Shown: piece after piece, positions 13,498 through 22,670 of the stretch | Layout of the letters: the number at the start of each line of letters is the position of its first letter | Numbering within the stretch: the first letter of the stretch is position 1 | IMG/VR virus record: IMGVR_UViG_3300044984_002279 | Location: 1 to 37,939 of that record | Length of the DNA: 37,939 nucleotides | Reading direction: 5' to 3' (one strand) | Source: a virus | Program-made: the position numbers and the translations under genes | Notes under the pieces: model-generated | What the model was told of the DNA's origin: nothing | What the model saw: only the letters and a program-made list of their open reading frames with translations | Databases searched by the model: none

Positions 13498-15045
13498 ATG
13501 GCTATTAATCGTATCTTAACTTTCTCCAATCTCGTATTATTCACTGCACTCTCATTAAGCGCCATTGCCGCTTGGTATAGCATTTTAGGCTTGATGGCAA
13601 TATTCGCCGCAGCCGCCATACCCATTATAATAATGGGCGGTTCATTAGAGATAGCAAAGGTTGTAACAACAGTATGGCTACATCGCTATTGGGCTATGGC
13701 CAGCTGGACTATTAAAAGCTACTTAGTTCCTGCTGTATTTGCGTTAGCATTTTTAACCAGTATGGGAATATTTGGGTTCCTAAGTAAAGCTCACTTGGAT
13801 CAAGGTGTACCGGCAGGTGATGTTATTGCTAAAGTAACAATATTTGATGAAAAGATTAAAATAGCAAAGGACAATATAGATGTCAATCGCAAGGCGCTCA
13901 AACAGATGGATGAGGCAGTGGATCAGGTCATGGGCCGCTCATCAGATGAAAAGGGTGCCGATAAAGCGGTACAGATTCGTAGAGGACAGCAGAAGGAACG
14001 TAGCAGACTACTCGCCGATATCGAAGCCGAGCAGAAAAAAGTTAGCCGGCTTGTGGAAGATCGAGCGCCCGTGGCGGCAGAGGTTCGCAAAGTTGAAGCA
14101 GAAGTTGGACCAATCAAATACATAGCAGCATTGATCTATGGGGACAACCCGGACAGCAATACATTAGAGCGGGCAGTAAGATGGGTGATCATCCTAATTG
14201 TGTGCGTGTTTGACCCATTGGCGTTAACATTGGTTATCGCCGCTAATACCAGCCGTATTTGGGAAAGAAAAATAGAAGAGGATAAGAATACAAAAAATCT
14301 TATCCCGCCAAGTACAGACCTCGTTATCCCCAAGCTACCTGACTTGATTGATACTGTAACTGACAAACCCATTACCGAACAAGCGGAAGAGGTATTTGAT
14401 TCGGCGCCTATAAATGAGTTTGATATCGCCCAACATCCATATTTGTTCTTTAAGGATAAAGGATTTCCCGAGCAATCGCCCGAGCCTCAAAGCAAGCCAG
14501 ACTGGCCCACTGAGTGGCAAGAAGAGCCTGAAGTGGAAGAAGTCATAGTTAAAGAGAGTGTGTCGGAACCTGTCATTAGTGAGCCAACTGTTGAGCCAGA
14601 AATTGTTATCACGATACCGCCTGTTAACATAATAACTGACGGAGTGACTACGGAAAAACCTTATAAGGAAATGCAACATGGATATGTTTCTTTTGAAGGT
14701 AAACATATGCACAAAAATGTGTTGCGAGAAATTAAACCAGAATTTTTTAAACTGACTGCTGACTCCGCAACCAAAATCAGTACCAATTTTGGTATAAAAT
14801 TTCCTCAAATTTCTAGTAAAGGTGATATCTTTGTAAGGGTAGATGCATTGCCAAACCGTGTTTACAAGTTTAGTGGTTCTAATTGGATAGAGATTAACAA
14901 ATCCCAAACAGATTCCTATTTACAAGATGAAGAATATATCCAATTCCTTATCAGCAAGATAGATAGTGGGGAATATGATATAGAACTATTATCGGAAAAT
15001 GAAAAAGCTCAACTAGAAGAGTTCTTGAAGAACCAAAAAACTTGA
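13498..15045 (+). CDS. Large coiled-coil membrane protein (515 aa)
   Basis: Three N-terminal membrane segments (about 9-47 as two, 74-96 as one) are followed by a charged coiled coil (about 105-205, with EKIKIAKDNIDVNRKALKQM and KKVSRLVEDRAPVAAEVRKV). A fourth membrane segment lies at about 227-250 (VIILIVCVFDPLALTLVIAA). The rest is an acidic, Pro/Glu-rich linker and a soluble C-terminal domain (about 385-515). The layout suggests an inner-membrane protein with a long rod and a cytoplasmic tail; similar proteins occur in large myoviruses. No Shine-Dalgarno is seen at the start. It may sense or remodel the host membrane, which is inference. Confidence 0.78.
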   Translation: MAINRILTFSNLVLFTALSLSAIAAWYSILGLMAIFAAAAIPIIIMGGSLEIAKVVTTVWLHRYWAMASWTIKSYLVPAVFALAFLTSMGIFGFLSKAHLDQGVPAGDVIAKVTIFDEKIKIAKDNIDVNRKALKQMDEAVDQVMGRSSDEKGADKAVQIRRGQQKERSRLLADIEAEQKKVSRLVEDRAPVAAEVRKVEAEVGPIKYIAALIYGDNPDSNTLERAVRWVIILIVCVFDPLALTLVIAANTSRIWERKIEEDKNTKNLIPPSTDLVIPKLPDLIDTVTDKPITEQAEEVFDSAPINEFDIAQHPYLFFKDKGFPEQSPEPQSKPDWPTEWQEEPEVEEVIVKESVSEPVISEPTVEPEIVITIPPVNIITDGVTTEKPYKEMQHGYVSFEGKHMHKNVLREIKPEFFKLTADSATKISTNFGIKFPQISSKGDIFVRVDALPNRVYKFSGSNWIEINKSQTDSYLQDEEYIQFLISKIDSGEYDIELLSENEKAQLEEFLKNQKT

Positions 15046-15070
15046 CTTTAATACAACAATGTGATATACT
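15042..15070 (+). promoter_or_regulatory. Sigma70-type promoter for the envelope/Clp block
   Basis: TTGACT 15042-15047, 17 bp spacer, TGA-TATACT with -10 at 15065-15070. The stop codon of the membrane protein (15043-15045) lies inside the -35, as in the early cassettes. Confidence 0.78.
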
Positions 15071-15101: not shown

Positions 15102-15764
15102 ATGAAATTCAAAGTCCTTGTATTGGTTAGTGCTATTATGCTAGCAGGCTGTTCTTCTGCACCAAAGAAGGAAGGCCTTGAAGCTGGACCCATCACCCCT
15201 ATTAGTGCCCAACAACTGAGCACTAGTTTTAAACGCCAAGGGGTTAAAATTGAATGGGATTGTGCTTGGGGAACAGGGCTATTTGAAAGTACCTGTGTTA
15301 AAAATAGCATTAAAGCAATTGAGGTTACTGGCTATGCAAGTTCGTTTGGTAATAGCGAGGTGATGCGTGAACAGGCCTTTAAAGTTGCCCACGATACTGC
15401 TCTTGACAAGCTTATCCGATTTGTGCGGCAAGATATTGTTAGTACTCGGGTAACTGCAACTATGTCTAAGAATATTGAAAAGGCGCAGGATCGGGTTAAA
15501 CATCGTATCAAAGCGGATGAGGAAATATCAATGTCTGATGATGAGGCGTCTAAAGATACCAATTGGGCTGTACGTGAAAACACGAATAACACAGTCAGGG
15601 ACCTCAATGAAACCATTCGCACAAATGCACAAGGTGTGATCCGTGGTGCGAGGTCGGTAGATGAGAAAATTGTAGATCGCCAAACAGTAGCAGTAACTCT
15701 ACGCTGGGATGCTAATGGTGATAAGGCCGCAGAATATCTTCGTAAGCGTTTCGTTACCAACTAA
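15102..15764 (+). CDS. LPP20-like lipoprotein (220 aa)
   Basis: ATG 15102 follows CGGAG at 15091-15095. The frame could open upstream at 15042, but that codon lies in the -35. A signal peptide ends in lipobox LAGCSS (Cys 17). The middle (IEVTGYASSFGNSEVMREQA, then AHDTALDKLIRFV) has the 'GxA...A...A...A' helix pattern of the LPP20 fold found in FlgP-like lipoproteins. A charged helical region with EKAQDRVKHRIKADEEIS and a beta C-terminus (TVAVTLRWD) follow. Predicted to be an outer-membrane or periplasmic lipoprotein; the partner is likely the next gene's product. Confidence 0.75.
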   Translation: MKFKVLVLVSAIMLAGCSSAPKKEGLEAGPITPISAQQLSTSFKRQGVKIEWDCAWGTGLFESTCVKNSIKAIEVTGYASSFGNSEVMREQAFKVAHDTALDKLIRFVRQDIVSTRVTATMSKNIEKAQDRVKHRIKADEEISMSDDEASKDTNWAVRENTNNTVRDLNETIRTNAQGVIRGARSVDEKIVDRQTVAVTLRWDANGDKAAEYLRKRFVTN

Positions 15765-15766
15765 GT

Positions 15767-16768
15767 ATGAAAAACTTACTGCTAGCATTGTGTTTAATGC
15801 TATGTTCAGGTGCAACTATTGGTCAGCAATCACATACCATTAGAGTTAGTGGTAATGGTAATTCATTTGAACAAGCTAAACTAAATGCGTTTAAGATTGC
15901 GATTGAGCAGCACGTGGGATTTATCGTATCCTCAGAGCGTGAAGTACACAATCTAAAACTAGCAAGAGAAGAGATTTTGGTGTATAGTTCAGGCTATGTT
16001 GATAACTATACGATTGTATCACACCAGCAAGCAGGTAATACTATAGTATTGGTGGTGGATGTGGCAGTAGCATCTAGTAAGATAGCAAACAGAATTCTCT
16101 CACATTCATCTAGTATCCATCAATTTAATGGTGATCGGCATTCAGCACAGTACCAAACTTATTTAGCCAACCGTAATAGCGGAGACAATTTGCTACAGTC
16201 AGTGATAGCTGATTATCCAAAACACGCATTTAATATTGAGCAAAAACCCTATTCTCTACACGTTGATGCATTCCGAAATGCAGTTATTGTAATACCCTAT
16301 CAACTGAGTTGGAATTATAATTATATAGTATCATTGAGTTCGGTGTTGGCTGAATTGCATGAAGGTAGGCAGGGATTTTTAGCTAAGCCTGCTGGTCAGG
16401 TAGTAGTTATGGTGAAGGATCCAAAAGACTTTCTAATTGGATCCAAGACACATTTTAAATTTAATGATTTTATTAGAGTAAATAAACTAGTTGAAGGAAT
16501 GAACGGGGACAATGAAATTAGAATTAAAGCTATCGTGAAAAACAAATACAACCAGATTGTAGCAGAATCGTGCCATATTCCTAGCATGGTGACAGGTGAC
16601 ACCCCGGCATTTTTTGACGCCGGGCAACTTAACACTCTACTTATATACGGTAATCAACGTGAGAATGGAAATATTAGAATTGTCGTGACCCCGCAATCTA
16701 ACCTTTATCAGTCGTTGAATGACATTTTGGATTTACAATTAAAAATTGTAAATTATATAGCCTGTTAA
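15767..16768 (+). CDS. Secreted protein with FlgT-N/LPP20-like domain (333 aa)
   Basis: The start is two bases after the lipoprotein stop, with no Shine-Dalgarno, so translation is coupled. A signal peptide (MKNLLLALCLMLCSGATIGQ) is followed by a domain of about 90 residues (IRVSGNGNSFEQAKLNAFKI, VSSEREVHNLKLAREEILVY) resembling the N-terminal domain of FlgT of Vibrio and the LPP20 fold. The rest is a mixed beta domain of unknown type. FlgT and FlgP form the outer-membrane rings of the sheathed flagellum; here the pair may act in the envelope during infection. No flagellar role is claimed. Confidence 0.72.
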   Translation: MKNLLLALCLMLCSGATIGQQSHTIRVSGNGNSFEQAKLNAFKIAIEQHVGFIVSSEREVHNLKLAREEILVYSSGYVDNYTIVSHQQAGNTIVLVVDVAVASSKIANRILSHSSSIHQFNGDRHSAQYQTYLANRNSGDNLLQSVIADYPKHAFNIEQKPYSLHVDAFRNAVIVIPYQLSWNYNYIVSLSSVLAELHEGRQGFLAKPAGQVVVMVKDPKDFLIGSKTHFKFNDFIRVNKLVEGMNGDNEIRIKAIVKNKYNQIVAESCHIPSMVTGDTPAFFDAGQLNTLLIYGNQRENGNIRIVVTPQSNLYQSLNDILDLQLKIVNYIAC

Positions 16769-16786: not shown

Positions 16787-17992
16787 ATGCCTGTAGAAAA
16801 TAAAATAAGCCATTGTTCGTTTTGCGGCAACAACAAGGAAGTTGTTAAAAAACTTATTGTAAGTGAATCGGTAGCCATTTGTAGTGCCTGTATTGAGTTA
16901 TGTACACAATTGATTGAAGATGAATCTTCGGTAGAAGAGACCACTGCTATTGAGAAAATTCCGTTTGATGCAATTGCAATTAAAGAATTCTTGGATGAGC
17001 ACGTGATCGGACAAGATAGTGCCAAGATTGTTCTTAGTGTCGCTATTGCCAATCATTACAAACGAATTACTTACCCACCTACAAATTTGGATATTCAAAA
17101 GGGAAATATTCTTTTGATAGGTCCAACTGGATCAGGAAAGACTTTACTTGCTAAAACAGTTGCAAAGTATCTTAATGTTCCCTTTGTTGTAGCAGATGCT
17201 ACCAGTTTAACTGAAGCTGGATATGTAGGGGATGACGTTGAAAGTATGATTGGGATGTTGGTTAGTGCAGCAGGCGGTGACCCTAGACTAGCAGAACGCG
17301 GGATTGTATTCATCGATGAGATTGATAAGATTGCTCGTAAGGGTGAAAGTGCAAATATTACCCGCGATGTTTCAGGGGAGGGTGTTCAACAGGCTCTGCT
17401 TAAACTAGTAGAGGGTACAGTATGTAGGATTCCAGCAGCCGGTGGAAGGAAACATCCTGGTGGCGATATGATGGAAATTAATACCAAAAACATCTTGTTC
17501 ATTGCAGGCGGGGCTTTTGTAGGACTGTCTGAAGTGATTAAAAGCCGTATCAAGGGGACCAGTATTGGTTTCGGTGCCTCGCTAGCTAAGACACACGATG
17601 AAGCGGATCTAAGTGCAGTGACACCAGATGATTTGACTAAATTTGGAATGATCCCCGAATTTGTTGGTCGATTTACTACAGCAGTCAGTCTTACTGATTT
17701 GAATGAAGAACAGTTGCTGAGAGTGCTAACCGATATTAAAAACAACTACATTGACCAATACAAATATCTATTCTCATTGGATAAAGTTGAGCTAGAGTTC
17801 GATCAATCTGCGTTAAAGCAATTGGTTACTAATTGCTTGACGTTGAAGACTGGAGCTAGAGGTCTACACACTGAAATCGAACGTGCCTTAATGCCGCATA
17901 TGTTCAATGTTAAAAAATATCAACGTACTGGATTGGTCAAAGTTAACATCAATCAAAAACTGGTATTGGAACCTAAAGAGATGTTGCCCTAA
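16787..17992 (+). CDS. clpX: ClpX ATP-dependent unfoldase (401 aa)
   Basis: Hexameric AAA+ unfoldase that feeds proteins to ClpP. The zinc-binding N-domain keeps Cys10, 13, 32 and 35. Walker A is GPTGSGKT (112-119), the pore-1 loop GYVG (145-148), Walker B IVFIDE (173-178), the RKH loop RKH (221-223), the ClpP-docking loop IGF (260-262), a conserved Arg at GR (294-295) and sensor 2 GARGL (356-360). All elements for ATP use, substrate grip and ClpP docking are present. Length is slightly below the bacterial 420-425. It is followed by hsp20 and clpS, and clpP lies 4 kb downstream. It is likely active; it could work with phage or host ClpP. Confidence 0.97.
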
Positions 17993-18018
17993 ATACTATA
18001 TTTTTTTGCGTATTCTGA

Positions 18019-18029
18019 TATAATAAATA
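18019..18029 (+). promoter_or_regulatory. Overlapping -10 and late-type element upstream of hsp20
   Basis: TGA-TATAAT (extended -10, 18019-18024) has no good -35 at 17 bp. The overlapping AATAAATA (18022-18029) resembles the late-type box. Either sigma could start transcription near 18031-18035, giving a leader of about 60 bases. Confidence 0.6.
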
Positions 18030-18032
18030 CAT

Positions 18033-18060
18033 ATGTAGATGCCGATAATCGGGTCTACAT
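18033..18060 (+). promoter_or_regulatory. Hairpin at the 5' end of the hsp20 leader
   Basis: ATGTAGA pairs with TCTACAT, enclosing CCGAT/ATCGG, so a 12-bp interrupted stem forms (18033-18060). It lies at the predicted transcript start. It does not include the Shine-Dalgarno (AGGAGA at 18081-18086), so it is more likely an mRNA-stabilising 5' hairpin than a classic RNA thermometer. No T-run follows, which argues against a terminator for clpX. Confidence 0.5.
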
Positions 18061-18092
18061 TAGTCATCTTGCTTAATAATAGGAGAAATCAA

Positions 18093-18545
18093 ATGACAAA
18101 AACTTTAACCCTTCGGTCCCTCGACATTCCATCACTTCACAAATTCGGTATCGGTTTTGATACGATGTTTGATGAGTTGCAGAGAATGCACATTCAACAA
18201 CCCAACACAAACTACCCTCCATATAACATAGTCCAAATCAATGAGGACGAGTATATGATTAGTTTAGCTGTGGCGGGATTTAGCCAAGACAATCTTTCAG
18301 TTACCAAAGAAAAAAACTTCTTAATCATTGAAGGTACGTTGGGAATGAACAATGCAGAGACTGAAGAAATCAATTACTTGCATAAAGGTATCAGTGAGAG
18401 AGATTTTCGCAGAGAATTCAAGCTTGCGGATCACGTGGAGATAGAGAACGCACATCTAGAATTGGGAATTCTTAGTATTCGCCTGAAACGCGAAGTTCCT
18501 GAGGAACAAAAACCCAAGAAGATTTCTATCTCTTATAATAAATAA
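18093..18545 (+). CDS. Small heat-shock protein Hsp20 (150 aa)
   Basis: ATG 18093 follows AGGAGA; the upstream in-frame ATG at 18039 lies in the leader hairpin. The alpha-crystallin domain covers about residues 43-140, with YNIVQINEDEYMISLAVAGF and the C-terminal 'LELGILSIRL', equivalent to the G-x-L signature. The tail KKISIS carries the I-x-I motif used in oligomer contacts. It resembles IbpA-type bacterial sHsps and those carried by T4-like cyanophages. It holds unfolded proteins for refolding or degradation, which fits its place between ClpX and ClpS. Confidence 0.93.
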   Translation: MTKTLTLRSLDIPSLHKFGIGFDTMFDELQRMHIQQPNTNYPPYNIVQINEDEYMISLAVAGFSQDNLSVTKEKNFLIIEGTLGMNNAETEEINYLHKGISERDFRREFKLADHVEIENAHLELGILSIRLKREVPEEQKPKKISISYNK

Positions 18546-18558
18546 TATAGAGTAATCA

Positions 18559-18580
18559 GGATGCGGTGAAAACCGCATCC
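18559..18580 (+). terminator. Stem-loop between hsp20 and clpS
   Basis: Perfect 8-bp stem GGATGCGG/CCGCATCC with a six-base loop, followed by ATTTG only. The weak U-tract suggests partial termination or an mRNA-processing hairpin, letting some transcription reach clpS. Confidence 0.55.
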
Positions 18581-18601
18581 ATTTGTCAAAGGTAAACTAA
18601 A

Positions 18602-18907
18602 ATGTCAAAAACAGATACCAAAATTAAAATCAAACCCAATCTTGGTCTTCAAGAGCCACCACTATTCAGAATCATTTATATTAATGATGAAGTTACATCA
18701 ATGGAGTTTGTAGTAGAGTCACTGATAGATTATTTTAATTATAATGTAGACACTGCGGCAGTTATCACAAAGAACATTCACGATTCAGGGAGTGCGGTAG
18801 TAGCGGTCTTGCCCTATGAAATCGCAGAACAACGAGGGATCGAAGTTACCCTGGATGCTAGGTCACACGGTTTCCCACTGCAAATCAAAGTAGAAGCTGA
18901 GGGTTAG
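18602..18907 (+). CDS. clpS: ClpS N-degron adaptor (101 aa)
   Basis: ClpS binds N-terminal hydrophobic residues of targets and hands them to a Clp AAA+ partner. The conserved pocket elements are present: IYINDEVTSMEFV (Asn28, Asp29, Met34) and His60 in NIHDSGSAVVAV, followed by a typical core (PYEIAEQRGIEVTLDARSHG) and end (FPLQIKVE). Bacterial ClpS normally works with ClpA, which is not in this window, so the phage protein may use host ClpA or phage ClpX. Start ATG 18602 has AAGG in the preceding leader. It overlaps the convergent gene by four bases. Confidence 0.93.
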   Translation: MSKTDTKIKIKPNLGLQEPPLFRIIYINDEVTSMEFVVESLIDYFNYNVDTAAVITKNIHDSGSAVVAVLPYEIAEQRGIEVTLDARSHGFPLQIKVEAEG

Positions 18908-19587
18908 ACCTCAACTGAAATTCTTTTAGCCCAATATGGGTTTAATTTATAATAAGGATTGGTAACATAGTTGATATCGTTTATGACGGTATCAACATTT
19001 TTTTTGTATGTGCCAAAGGCCCAATGAGATACTTTATGCTCTGTGTCGGCCATCAAAGCGATAGCCGGTTCGTATTGAGCAAGGATACCAGGTGGCTCTT
19101 CTCCATAATATAACTCTTGTCTTGGTACAGAATTACTCACCAAGAGTATCTTAGTGACATCTAAGTGCCGTTGTAATTTTTCTAATGATTTTTTTAAGTA
19201 ATGAATATCGTCTAAGTGTGCGGCTATTGCCGAGCCCTTTAGATCAGGAATACCATACCATCCATTACATCCTAGAATGGCAACACCATCGATAATCACC
19301 ACTCGTTGATGTAGCACTGCGACATTACGAATATGATTACATACGTGGATAATGTCATTGGTCCTGGAATCAATATCTGGCATATTTTCATATTCCAGTG
19401 TTCCAGGGGAGTAGAACACTCCCTGATAAAATTTAGATAAATGCGTGAGAGTAATGGCGATAGTTCGTAAATCGTGACTTACATTTCCTGCTATAATGCA
19501 GTATAAGCTAGTAGCTTTATTTTCCCAATTAAAAACATCATCGGGTAATAAATGTAAGTCGCTGATTAAATCAAAACCTATCTCCAT
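18904..19587 (-). CDS. Degenerate calcineurin-like phosphoesterase (227 aa)
   Basis: It has the overall order of a metallophosphoesterase of this phage type, but the metal sites are eroded. The first box DLH (Asp10-His12) is intact, but GD is GN (34-35), GNHE is GTLE (62-65), the His of the fourth box is missing (SNS, 151-153) and the final GHTH is FGTY (191-194). It is therefore likely not catalytic. Compare the intact paralogue at 25015. It may have become a binding protein, or be a decaying gene still free of stops. It runs opposite to the Clp genes. Confidence 0.75.
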   Translation of the reverse strand: MEIGFDLISDLHLLPDDVFNWENKATSLYCIIAGNVSHDLRTIAITLTHLSKFYQGVFYSPGTLEYENMPDIDSRTNDIIHVCNHIRNVAVLHQRVVIIDGVAILGCNGWYGIPDLKGSAIAAHLDDIHYLKKSLEKLQRHLDVTKILLVSNSVPRQELYYGEEPPGILAQYEPAIALMADTEHKVSHWAFGTYKKNVDTVINDINYVTNPYYKLNPYWAKRISVEV

Positions 19588-19593
19588 TACTAC

Positions 19594-19929
19594 TTACTTA
19601 ACAATAGTCATTCTTGGTGCTTTAGGCTTAGGTGCCTTAGCTGCTACAGCTTTAGGTTTCGCAGCTTTTGGCCTGGCAGTTTTGACTGGCGCTGGTGCCA
19701 CTACAGGTTCAGATGTCACGGTTATTGGAGCTGTGGCCTCTACTACAGCAATAATAGCTGGTTGAACTACAGGTTCTTCTTTAACCACTTCCGGTGCGGG
19801 TGCCGGAGTCTCTATCTTATAAGGTGCCTCAGCTTCAACGAACGATGGTGTCTTAGAATCTCGGGTTACAACAAATCTGATTACTGCTATAATAACCGCA
19901 ATTATTGCTATTACAATGAGTGCTTCCAT
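19594..19929 (-). CDS. Membrane-anchored Pro/Ala/Lys-rich protein (111 aa)
   Basis: One N-terminal membrane helix (EALIVIAIIAVIIAVIRFVV) is followed by an acidic, Pro-rich part (YKIETPAPAPEVVKEEPVVQ) and a basic tail with repeated K-P-K-A/A-K-P units (TARPKAAKPKAVAAKAPKPK). The layout recalls TonB-like spacers or histone-H1-like tails, so the basic tail may bind nucleic acid or the cell wall. AGGAG precedes the ATG. It is probably cotranscribed with the degenerate phosphoesterase. Confidence 0.7.
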   Translation of the reverse strand: MEALIVIAIIAVIIAVIRFVVTRDSKTPSFVEAEAPYKIETPAPAPEVVKEEPVVQPAIIAVVEATAPITVTSEPVVAPAPVKTARPKAAKPKAVAAKAPKPKAPRMTIVK

Positions 19930-19991
19930 TTAAATCTCCTAAAAGACTATTTAATGTTTTTTTAAAGGATAGATATTTTTCTATAATTATG

Positions 19992-19999
19992 GATAAATA
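19992..19999 (+). promoter_or_regulatory. Candidate late promoter GATAAATA abutting the SprT-like gene
   Basis: GATAAATA with its last A six bases before ATG 20005. By analogy with T4, where transcription starts six bases after the box, initiation would be at the A of the ATG. Confidence 0.6.
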
Positions 20000-20004
20000 T
20001 TGTT

Positions 20005-20487
20005 ATGAGTAAACTTAATCGTCATATGACTGAGGCTTTGCCCACACTAAGCTTTCAAAAAAGATTATCTTATAGAACCTCTATCACTGAAGTTCGTAGT
20101 TTATTTAAACTACTCAACAAAGAATTGTTCAACGGAGAACTTCCTATTCCAAAATTTCAACTGGTGTATCGTTGGAAAGGCTATTGGGGAGAATGTTCTG
20201 CTAAAGATGATACACCGATCCCCGCGCGGTCTACGTGTACCATTACATTAGTTGACAAGTGGGCGTGTCGTCAATGGTTAATTACTATACTAGCACACGA
20301 AATGTGTCATCAATATCAATGGGATGTCGCTGGCTTAAGAAGAATACAACAAGGATTAGAACCTATAATGAGCCATGGGCCCAGCTTCTTTGCACATAGA
20401 GATAGATTAATAACACACAGCATTCCATTAAAACGCTCACCTAATCTGGGTAATTGGTTTAAATTTCAAAATCTATTTAAGTCTTGA
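20005..20487 (+). CDS. SprT-like zinc metalloprotease (160 aa)
   Basis: The zinc site HEMCH (His98, Glu99, His102) sits in LITILAHEMCHQYQWD, and His124 in MSHGPSFF is a candidate third ligand, as in SprT/Spartan family proteins. The N-terminal half has the usual helical, then RWKGYWGECSA strand region. Spartan-type proteases cut DNA-protein crosslinks; phage versions are poorly known. It sits between the Clp genes, which suggests a shared proteolysis role. No Shine-Dalgarno is present; the late box is immediately upstream. Confidence 0.83.
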   Translation: MSKLNRHMTEALPTLSFQKRLSYRTSITEVRSLFKLLNKELFNGELPIPKFQLVYRWKGYWGECSAKDDTPIPARSTCTITLVDKWACRQWLITILAHEMCHQYQWDVAGLRRIQQGLEPIMSHGPSFFAHRDRLITHSIPLKRSPNLGNWFKFQNLFKS

Positions 20488-20490
20488 TAG

Positions 20491-20498
20491 CATAAATA
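20491..20498 (+). promoter_or_regulatory. Candidate late promoter CATAAATA abutting the next gene
   Basis: CATAAATAC, with the last A of the box seven bases before ATG 20505. Predicted transcription start is 20504, giving a 0-1 base leader. No Shine-Dalgarno is visible. Confidence 0.6.
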
Positions 20499-20504
20499 CT
20501 CATT

Positions 20505-22016
20505 ATGCGCGAATTCATTACTCTTATCCAAACTCTTTCCGAAGCTAAATCTGCACCTTCTCTTGTTCCCGGAGAACTTAATAAGGATGAGAGAAGATTT
20601 ACGACGTTTATAGATTATATAAAAAATAGAAAACCGTTTACCACGTTGGCAGGTGATGAAGTAATTATTGATCCACGCGAAGCCAAGCGTTTTCAAGGTC
20701 TGTACGATACCAATATGTTCCGTGGTCAATTGAAGGCCAGAACAACAACCGGTGAAGAGATATCATTGAATCAACTAGCCAAAACAAGCGCATTTGGCGG
20801 CGCAGCAAAAGCCGCAGGTGAATCGGAAATGTCAGCCGGTAAAGAAGCACTATTGGTTAAGCCTGGCCAAATAGGTATTTGTGACAGAGATATCCCTGCC
20901 TCAGATTTTTATGATGAAATCGTAAATAACCCAGTATTGAACAGCACCGATTACGGAAAGGTAATCATTCAGCTAGCCGAATATATTAGAGCCGGCGAAT
21001 ATGTCATGGTACCACCTGAATATCAACAGAAGGACAAAGAAAAAGTTCTGAAGGCAATTATTGATTATGGTGGCGAGTATTTAGGGGTGTTGGCATTACT
21101 TTATAATAGAAGTCGGTTTCCCAAAAGAGCAGAGTTCACTAAATGGATGGGTGGTAATTTGAGTGAGTTAGTATTGAATTTTCCCGGGTCAGCAAATAAT
21201 AACATTGCTGATAGTTATGCTAATATTAGAAATTCAACTAATGAACACACACTAAACATTAGCAGTAAAGGCACCGGAGGTGGTGCTGCGCCTGCTGTCT
21301 CTGGATTACAGGTCCCTGAACATATCAACGCTAATCCAAAATACTCTACCGCAGTAGAATTCATTAAGCTATGTAAAGAGCCAGGCACTATTGCGCAGGC
21401 ATTCAAAGCATTGGATATAATCTTCAAATCCAATCCAAAATCTATAGATAAGAAATGGCATTCATTTTTACCATTCTCTACAAAACACCCCAACATTGAA
21501 TGGTTGGCTAAAGAAAGCTTGAATGCTAAAAAGAATCGGGTAGACAGCCCATTGCCCAAAGAATATAGGCCTCTATACGGCGATATTAAAAGTGATGCTA
21601 GTGAGGGCGGAAAACTAATATATGCTGTTAAAAAAGAAGTGTTGAGGGCCATTAATGACCATGACGCTATTCCAGCTTTTAAAGATGTGGTACTAGACTT
21701 GTTAGAAATGAATTTTATTCAGCAATATGCTGATTACAAAAAGGGAGAGATAACATTTGCTACCCAATGGCCAGCTAAGCTAGACGGGCAGATTAGTGTT
21801 GAGAGTAAATCAAGTGCGAAAGATCCTAGTTCTGGTGGGTTTAGCTTTAAATTGGGAAGAAGCGATAGCAGTGTTAGCCATGAACCCAATGAACCATATA
21901 TAGACGGTGAGGATTACACCATCAATGAACCTGCTGACTTAGCCGCTGCAGCGCAGGATATAGTTAATCCCACACGAAAAGCTAAAGAAACTGAAGTTCG
22001 TAAAAAGAGAAAATAA
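20505..22016 (+). CDS. Large hypothetical late protein (503 aa)
   Basis: Not assigned to a family. The N-terminal part contains ISLNQLAKTSAFGGAAKAAG, in which 'KTS-FGG' recalls a segment seen in some phage nuclease-like proteins, but no catalytic set is visible. A helical region (about 140-260), a Gly/Ala-rich linker (SSKGTGGGAAPAVSG), a second helical domain and a basic tail (KAKETEVRKKRK) follow. Its late-type promoter box suggests a virion or packaging role, though this is inference. It ends 13 bases before the clpP promoter. Confidence 0.75.
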   Translation: MREFITLIQTLSEAKSAPSLVPGELNKDERRFTTFIDYIKNRKPFTTLAGDEVIIDPREAKRFQGLYDTNMFRGQLKARTTTGEEISLNQLAKTSAFGGAAKAAGESEMSAGKEALLVKPGQIGICDRDIPASDFYDEIVNNPVLNSTDYGKVIIQLAEYIRAGEYVMVPPEYQQKDKEKVLKAIIDYGGEYLGVLALLYNRSRFPKRAEFTKWMGGNLSELVLNFPGSANNNIADSYANIRNSTNEHTLNISSKGTGGGAAPAVSGLQVPEHINANPKYSTAVEFIKLCKEPGTIAQAFKALDIIFKSNPKSIDKKWHSFLPFSTKHPNIEWLAKESLNAKKNRVDSPLPKEYRPLYGDIKSDASEGGKLIYAVKKEVLRAINDHDAIPAFKDVVLDLLEMNFIQQYADYKKGEITFATQWPAKLDGQISVESKSSAKDPSSGGFSFKLGRSDSSVSHEPNEPYIDGEDYTINEPADLAAAAQDIVNPTRKAKETEVRKKRK

Positions 22017-22029
22017 GTTCCAATACTAG

Positions 22030-22058
22030 TTGACATTATCGCATTTATTCGTTATAAT
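22030..22058 (+). promoter_or_regulatory. Sigma70-type promoter for clpP
   Basis: TTGACA 22030-22035, 17 bp spacer, TATAAT 22053-22058, both consensus. No extended -10. Leader of about 18-20 bases with AAGGA at 22073-22077. Confidence 0.9.
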
Positions 22059-22082
22059 GTTGAAACTTTTATAAGGAAATAT

Positions 22083-22670
22083 ATGAACTTAGTGCCAATG
22101 GTATTGGAGCAAACTAGTCGTGGCGAGCGTAGCTATGACATCTATAGCCGTCTTTTGCGGGATCGTGTTATTCTCTTAGAAGGAGAAGTGCATGACCAAA
22201 TGGCTAACCTAATCGTCGCACAATTGCTTTATTTGGAAAGCGAAGGTGAGAAAACTATTAGTGTCTACATTAATAGCCCGGGAGGTAGTGTGACCGCTGG
22301 AATGGCTATTTACGATTGTATGCAATTTGTAAATTGTGATGTGCAAACGATTGTTATGGGTCAAGCCTGTTCGATGGGGTCATTACTCGCAACCGCTGGA
22401 TCTCCCGGTAAGAGAAAGATACTGCCAAATGCTCGGCATATGTGTCACCAACCCAGTGGCGGGGCACGTGGGCAAGCTACTGATATGGAAATTCAGGTTA
22501 AAGAAATTCTTACTATGAAGAAGAACTTGACTGAAATATATGTCCATCACAACTCTAAGGGAAAGACGTTTGATGAGTTTGCTACTATGATGGAACGTGA
22601 TACATTTATGTCCGCCCAAGAATCGTTGGATTGGGGATTGGCTGACGAAATCATTGTCAAGCGTAGCTGA
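22083..22670 (+). CDS. clpP: ClpP serine peptidase (195 aa)
   Basis: Tetradecameric peptidase chamber. The triad is complete: Ser97 in QACSMGS, His122 in MCHQPSGG and Asp173 in ERDTFMS, at the same spacing as bacterial ClpP. The N-terminus [20 protein letters not shown] matches the mature bacterial start, so almost no propeptide is present. The axial-loop and hydrophobic-cleft regions that take the ClpX IGF loop look conserved. It has its own perfect promoter. It can be expected to pair with the phage ClpX or to mix with host subunits. Confidence 0.97.

Follow-up and report, generated by a model that had tools for sequence, protein, structure and literature searches.

A conserved pair of genes for an exported lipoprotein and a secreted protein with a FlgT_N-like domain in large, mostly uncultivated phages

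Background

The closest parallel to the phage gene pair described here (P1, a lipoprotein, and P2, a secreted protein) is the H. pylori operon of HP1456 (Lpp20) and HP1454, rather than flgP and flgT of Vibrio. In the available portion of PMC11756786, HP1454 is a secreted protein with an Lpp20-like first domain, encoded in one operon with HP1456, and the genes of the HP1455 region are named only as an operon; neither motility nor the motor was affected when hp1456 was deleted, and there was no barrier phenotype, which is a warning against inferring a flagellar function from the fold. According to the accessible text of PMC12222027, FlgP, FlgT, Lpp20 and dodecin have a common SHS2-like fold, and ring formation by SHS2-like proteins is tied to an insert that separates the helix from the second strand. 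The available part of a review of jumbo phages (PMC7824862) mentions neither LPP20 nor FlgT, and no phage-coded FlgT or LPP20 protein was found described in the open-access literature as represented by titles and the beginnings of abstracts.

Like HP1456 and HP1454, P1 and P2 would be a lipoprotein of Lpp20-like fold and a secreted partner with an Lpp20-like first domain (the top PDB match of P1 is Lpp20, 5ok8, and the list for P2 includes HP1454, 4kzs), but the likeness is one of predicted fold and layout, with no sequence relation seen, and the H. pylori operon has no phage context. Vibrio FlgT (PF16548; 3w1e, 8z5n) resembles the N-terminal domain of P2 (94.8% probability between profiles, 60 residues superposed at 2.3 A), but the remainder of P2 is unrelated, the score of P2 (15.8 bits) falls short of the 28.8-bit cut-off, and its setting is not flagellar. 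Campylobacter FlgP (9hmf, chain A of which is apparently FlgP, judging from the accessible text of PMC12222027) has an SHS2-like fold with a hairpin inserted between the helix and the second strand, as in the P2 model, but in the phages P1, not P2, is the constant lipoprotein, and P1 has no profile match to two FlgP sequences. Cor, one of the short outer-membrane lipoproteins by which phages exclude superinfection, is phage-coded as P1 is, and P1 matches it (PHROG 1119, E 0.0043), but only over the signal region (residues 1-22), and the Cor profile of 78 positions contrasts with the 220 amino acids of P1 and the presence of a second protein.

The gene pair and its features

The stretch of DNA that was analysed, referred to as the window, is the whole of a 37,939-base virus record (IMGVR_UViG_3300044984_002279). 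P1 (15102-15764, 220 amino acids) and P2 (15767-16768, 333 amino acids) are separated by a 2-base spacer; both ORFs lie exactly where the initial annotation had placed its lipoprotein and secreted-protein pair. Their neighbours encode DNA ligase, RNA ligase, ClpX, Hsp20, ClpS, an SprT-like protein and a ClpP-fold protease, the best PHROG match of which is head maturation protease. The features are as follows.

13498..15045, + strand: upstream membrane protein, a neighbour with four hydrophobic segments and a 135-residue loop predicted to be periplasmic
15042..15070, + strand: sigma-70-type promoter-like site, TTGACT-17-TATACT with an extended -10 TG, 10 of 12 matches, overlapping the stop of the membrane protein gene
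15102..15764, + strand: P1, lipoprotein of 220 amino acids, Cys17 in 77 of 77 aligned members
15102..15152, + strand: P1 signal peptide and lipobox cysteine, residues 1-17, by sequence and a lipobox regular expression
15288..15428, + strand: first half of the predicted SHS2-like core of P1 (strand 63-80, helix 86-109), by structure model and Lpp20 match
15429..15650, + strand: predicted helical insert of P1, residues 110-183, by structure model
15651..15755, + strand: predicted final two strands and C-terminal helix of P1, residues 184-218, by structure model
15767..16768, + strand: P2, exported protein of 333 amino acids, by ORF and signal peptide
15836..16081, + strand: FlgT_N or SHS2-like domain of P2, residues 24-105, by Pfam, profile-profile and fold comparison
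15917..15988, + strand: predicted hairpin segment of P2, between the SHS2 helix and the second strand, residues 51-74, by predicted secondary structure and conserved length
16223..16765, + strand: predicted beta-rich, immunoglobulin-like C-terminal region of P2, residues 153-333, with conserved Cys269 and Cys333, by model and alignment
16787..17992, + strand: clpX, downstream neighbour, by family match and position

Conservation and distribution

Relatives (L001-L147) were gathered from IMG/VR with single proteins and small alignments, one search retaining 80 of 86. P1 is present in all 148 screened records, many of which are repeats of one contig, and so is P2 except in L006 and L023, where the contig end falls within or just past P1. 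One hundred loci were taken as representative, a count that excludes records lacking P1 or P2 and in which uniqueness was judged by the last 150 residues of P2 only, near-identical contigs (such as the window, L001 and L002) being retained. In 99 of these the gap between P1 and P2 is -41 to +24 bases, most commonly -4 (39 loci), +2 (26) or -1 (16); the pair is therefore translationally coupled or nearly so. The gap of the remaining locus (L144, 4225-6807) is 1530 bases and contains other ORFs between a fragment of P1 and a P2 without its first 50 residues: this is a broken copy of the pair, with both genes damaged. That P1 and P2 form a conserved unit, in which pairing is obligate and far above chance, is well supported. 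For the alignments, sequences of fewer than 190 (P1) or 290 (P2) residues and those more than 90% identical were removed, which reduced 95 P1 sequences to 77 and 95 P2 sequences to 85.

The carriers of the pair are large, mostly uncultivated phages. It was seen in about 100 metagenomic phage contigs, several of them 300-370 kb, and was found by profile searches in all 10 large contigs tested; BFVD contributes three uncharacterised relatives from uncultured phages, and tblastn with five queries returned no relative from 50,697 phage records. A search of genome contigs with the P1 alignment gave no bacterial relative of P1, and the P1 profile gave a single marginal row (E 0.0093) against 274 genomes. 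The source contig of L084 (524,565 bases) carries the pair twice, at sites about 411 kb apart, and the membrane protein twice as well, which could reflect duplication or chimeric assembly.

Export signals and cysteines

P1 begins with a signal peptide and the lipobox LAGC (Cys17 in the window). The lipobox cysteine is present in all 77 aligned members and is followed by S, A or G in every one; the lipobox regular expression matches 93 of 99 distinct P1 ORFs, and the six that it misses comprise two truncated ORFs and others with a variant lipobox or a misread start. In E. coli, S, A or G after the lipobox cysteine sorts a lipoprotein to the outer membrane, and by this rule P1 would be sorted there; an outer-membrane location of the pair proteins is thus likely from their sequences. 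P2 has a lipobox-like pattern in 43 of 85 members by a simple pattern (50 of 101 in another count) and an ordinary signal peptide in the others, and some of these lipobox-like matches are false positives, at least 10 having leucine after the cysteine inside a hydrophobic stretch. The predicted signals support well the view of P1 and P2 as an exported pair. Residues 54 and 65 of P1 are both cysteine in 71 members and neither is in six, never one alone, and residues 269 and 333 of P2 are both cysteine in 79 of 85; these pairs would suit periplasmic disulfides.

Domains and predicted structure of P2

Against Pfam FlgT_N (PF16548), the window P2 gives E 0.021 and 15.8 bits (17.4 in a second scan), below the 28.8-bit gathering cut-off. 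Ten relatives rescanned against FlgT_N included one at 19.5 bits and nine without a match, and at E<=0.1 the 85 members include 13 that match LPP20 (best 2.1e-4) and 10 that match FlgT_N (best 4.3e-5). Once signal peptides had been cut away, hhalign matched the P2 profile to nine FlgT sequences (from 11 fetched loci, the remainder being wrong-strand or an unsuitable ORF) with a probability of 94.8% (E 5.5e-8), against maxima of 1.0% for 30 column shuffles and 0.5% for five unrelated neighbour families; the alignment covers 77 columns and passes through the hairpin region with a single gap. The same profile matches a bacterial protein that exceeds the FlgT_N cut-off with E 1.1e-11. A relationship of the first domain of P2 to FlgT_N, as the initial annotation had proposed from sequence pattern, is therefore well supported by the profile comparison together with the structural comparison below. 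The relationship ends with that domain: residues 111-333 of P2 against the nine FlgT sequences gave probability 0.0, and the middle and C-terminal domains of FlgT were not matched. P2 alone has no PDB sequence match, and PDB profile searches with P1 and P2 gave chance-level rows only.

The predicted structure of P2 (pLDDT 88.0) has as its first Foldseek match in the PDB the Campylobacter motor scaffold (9hmf chain A, E 0.0029) and as its second Vibrio FlgT (3w1e, E 0.0070). VIA-align, in which Z below 8 can reflect a common arrangement only, gives dodecin (Z 7.9), FlgT (Z 7.7, 60 residues, 2.3 A), the LPHT ring 8z5n (Z 7.2) and HP1454 (4kzs, Z 6.5); the FlgT and HP1454 rows, within about 1 Z of dodecin, are ties, so that dodecin, not an outer-membrane protein, is as good a fold match of P2 as FlgT is. 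The fold matches of the P1 and P2 models (Foldseek E 0.003-0.012) are suggestive. In the model, helix 34-50 is followed by a hairpin (strands 53-61 and 64-73) and then by strand 76-89, and although the hairpin is poorly modelled (block mean pLDDT 61 and 52), its segment is 24 residues long in 84 of 85 members. Judged by the model, P2 keeps the segment corresponding to the ring-linked beta-hairpin of FlgP and FlgT, and by analogy with these proteins it is plausible that P2 self-associates through the hairpin and is a candidate ring former. The hairpin lies in the most conserved domain of P2: mean pairwise identity is 42% over residues 24-105 and 43% over the hairpin, versus 24% in the C-terminal part, a difference that would be expected were the far end to contact partners that vary. 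Matches of the C-terminal region to glycoside hydrolase family 2 and to Brr2 (Z at most 6.7) were read as a common immunoglobulin-like arrangement rather than as a sign of an enzyme.

Predicted fold of P1

The P1 model (pLDDT 76.8) was the best of five by a wide margin. Foldseek against the PDB ranks H. pylori Lpp20 first (5ok8, E 0.012, probability 0.98), and so does VIA-align (Z 6.0, 87 residues, 4.5 A), with Tip-alpha near Z 5; the predicted insert between the helix and the second strand is helical, with no hairpin. By sequence alone, P1 gives one chance-level row against the PDB, and the window P1 has no match to Pfam LPP20 (PF02169), which is likewise absent among the 25 listed of the 46 families matched by the 77 P1 members (E<=0.1). 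Against an LPP20 profile without signal peptides (22 of 30 fetched loci used, the remainder being wrong-strand or an unsuitable ORF), P1 reaches 8.5% (E 0.0039), with a maximum of 0.3% in 30 shuffles; 83.4% obtained with signal peptides was mostly signal peptide and was set aside. Thus P1, which the initial annotation had called LPP20-like, appears so by predicted fold, the sequence link being marginal and the Pfam profile giving no match. Sequence kinship between P1 and P2, which fell from 92.6% (hhalign) with signal peptides to 6.6% without, was dropped. P1 matched the FlgP set, which contained only two sequences, with probability 0.5%, no better than controls. PADLOC gave P1 one weak ZorA match (E 0.0019) over a helical stretch, read as helix similarity, and its defence models gave none for P2 or the upstream membrane protein.

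Promoter and leader

A sigma-70-type site about 60 bases 5' of P1, scoring at least 10 of 12 and nearly always with a 17-base spacer, is present in 53 of 75 loci, versus 4.1% of shuffles (which, here and for the leader, preserve base composition but not dinucleotides) and none of 85 loci upstream of P2. In a wider frame the site precedes P1 in 69 of 94 loci, clpS in 61 of 68, the membrane protein in 9 of 73 and clpX in 4 of 75. Within the window alone, such sites are not above shuffle (16 found versus 16.9 expected). Because the promoter-like site before P1 is conserved, the pair apparently starts its own transcript, which would probably be read by the host RNA polymerase; early production of the pair is plausible from the promoter type, a reading against which counts the position of the pair directly behind tail genes in L009 and L142. 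The conserved site before clpS (the 18602 region of the window and its relatives, the 61 of 68 loci given above) is like that of P1. A 240-amino-acid version of P1 in the ORF list, with a TTG start at 15042, is most likely an artefact because this TTG belongs to the -35 hexamer of the promoter-like site. A TTAACT leader lies within 45 bases of the P1 start (about 20 bases before it) in 30 of 76 loci versus 3.1 expected, and is reminiscent of the known translation enhancer in the leader of T7 gene 10.

Neighbouring genes

The upstream membrane protein directly adjoins the pair in 70 of 89 loci with enough sequence and is present in 9 of 10 large pair-bearing contigs, far from the pair in five of them. 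Related proteins are encoded by Mosig (a Pelagibacter phage), XacN1 (Xanthomonas), RAS14 (Stenotrophomonas) and SCTP-2 (Salicola), in the last of which the relative likewise precedes clpX; a profile search found the pair in 0 of these 4 complete phages. Since it also occurs in phages without the pair, the membrane protein is only a possible partner. The membrane protein shares a C-terminal motif of about 40 residues with a second protein encoded in the same genomes.

An outer-membrane lipoprotein so often adjacent to a membrane protein with a 135-residue loop predicted to be periplasmic, the latter retained in large contigs even when not adjacent, could be a lysis device, P1, P2 and the membrane protein together breaching the outer membrane, in the manner of spanins, as the infection ends. 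P1 does have weak PHROG spanin matches (E 0.008-0.02), which cover only the N-terminal 22-36 residues of signal peptide and lipobox. Such a role is nevertheless unlikely: the pair has its own host-type promoter rather than a late one, no lysis gene was recognised in the immediate flanks that were read, the predicted folds are Lpp20-like and FlgT-like, and the membrane protein is found in XacN1, RAS14, SCTP-2 and Mosig without the pair.

Immediately downstream of the pair, the gene is clpX in 72 of 88 loci; in 8 it encodes a ClpP-like protease, and 8 have other genes there. Among the 100 representative loci Hsp20 is encoded in 70, ClpS in 68 and DnaK in 39. The window has a run of proteolysis and chaperone genes at 16787-22670 (clpX, hsp20, clpS, the ClpP-like protease and the SprT-like protein). 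These frequencies would suit envelope quality control, with the pair, ClpX, ClpS, Hsp20 and DnaK constituting a phage stress-response island that sustains folding and export, but that is improbable given that the pair persists without Clp or chaperone neighbours in at least seven loci (L010, L026, L027, L045, L139, L142 and L147) and that Clp proteins are cytoplasmic whereas the pair is exported. In six loci outside the ClpX setting, a one-helix peptide of 42 residues overlaps the start of P1:

L010, 5876-6004: 42-residue peptide
L142, 3973-4101: 42-residue peptide
L026, 5879-6007: 42-residue peptide
L139, 5142-5270: 42-residue peptide
L144, 4100-4228: 42-residue peptide
L027, 995-1123: 42-residue peptide

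With such varied neighbours, the pair evidently travels as one unit among three or more settings. The window has its own copy of the 42-residue peptide at 2689-2820, 12 kb from the pair, and the peptide matches Synechococcus phage S-SRM01 under a feature named membrane protease subunit.

Flagella and possible hosts

The initial annotation had likened the two genes as a pair to FlgP and FlgT of the flagellar outer-membrane base. What stands is a FlgT_N domain, a lipoprotein with Lpp20 as its top PDB match and a conserved unit of two genes; the specific FlgP/FlgT pairing does not, as P1 matches FlgP (two sequences) at 0.5%, P2 has no match to the rest of FlgT and only 1 of 11 FlgT_N proteins was recovered. 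The 11 are the genomes, out of 274 from the gammaproteobacterial class, in which FlgT_N exceeds its cut-off; the P2 profile matches six genomes of the 274 at E<=0.01, and only G067 belongs to the 11. Because so few were found, P2 appears by profile to be nearer to non-flagellar FlgT_N-like proteins. The strongest match of the P2 profile (E 1.3e-19) is a bacterial protein of 500 residues with a FlgT_N-like domain (L274, 820-2322) and no flagellar gene in its 3.4 kb flank, and in G067 no flagellar gene was recognised in the short flank of the FlgT_N-type protein; the domain thus extends beyond flagella.

Phage DnaK (from L007) is closest to that of freshwater Burkholderiales (Limnohabitans and Rubrivivax; 71-76% in the top Burkholderiales rows, about 73%), a weak hint of a Burkholderiales host. 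Three Limnohabitans genomes contain no FlgT_N at E<=0.01. The 'Moraphages', which carry DnaK, were considered as the lineage and dropped, their predicted hosts being Bacteroidota in the available part of PMC12619734.

A flagellar role of the pair is unsupported. That P2 is a decoy of host FlgT that disturbs the motor ring would make use of its FlgT_N relationship, but is very unlikely, considering that P2 lacks the rest of FlgT, that the DnaK comparison, though a weak host assignment, points to Burkholderiales of which three Limnohabitans are without FlgT_N, and that FlgT_N occurs in so few gammaproteobacterial-class genomes, with one of 11 recovered by the P2 profile. A block of superinfection and a change of the membrane, also suggested initially, fit the data better than interference with motility.

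Proposed function

The reading that is tentatively preferred, drawing on the computed export signals, obligate pairing, FlgT_N relationship, hairpin length and promoter-like site, is that the pair is a phage-made outer-membrane complex that remodels the envelope of the infected cell, perhaps for superinfection exclusion. P1 would be anchored by its lipid in the inner leaflet of the outer membrane, with P2 beneath it and itself lipidated in perhaps half of the phages. The FlgT_N domain of P2 would self-associate via the conserved beta-hairpin, like the FlgP and FlgT rings, and its variable C-terminal domain would face a partner. Host RNA polymerase would transcribe the pair from its own promoter, so that production would probably be early, and the remodelled outer membrane would most likely shut out other phages and preserve the envelope up to the moment of lysis. 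A more specific form, in which an FlgT-type protein and an Lpp20-type lipoprotein assemble beneath the outer membrane of the host into a lattice of rings or discs that seals the cell against other phages, a viral machine built from components that surround the flagellar motor in bacteria, is rather doubtful. At a guess, superinfection exclusion or envelope protection would suit a pair that is exported, directed to the envelope and strongly promoted better than would a part in lysis, in motility or in the virion.

A virion-associated or assembly role is highly improbable, for although in L009 and L142 the pair lies behind genes that we take to be sheath-like and tube-like, and the C-terminal motif of the membrane protein is weakly common to a PHROG virion protein (E 0.0026), signal peptides and lipoboxes are unexpected in virion proteins assembled in the cytoplasm, and most loci sit among Clp and chaperone genes.

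Conclusions

P1 and P2 constitute a widespread two-gene viral module, apparently directed at the outer membrane, that is unnamed by the annotation libraries used. FlgT_N is wider than flagella, and its Pfam name is thus not to be taken as a function. If the pair forms rings, a virus would be using the same domain as the outer-membrane rings of bacterial flagella, and there would be a direct route to testing the control that long-lived large phages exert over the envelope of the cell in which they reside.
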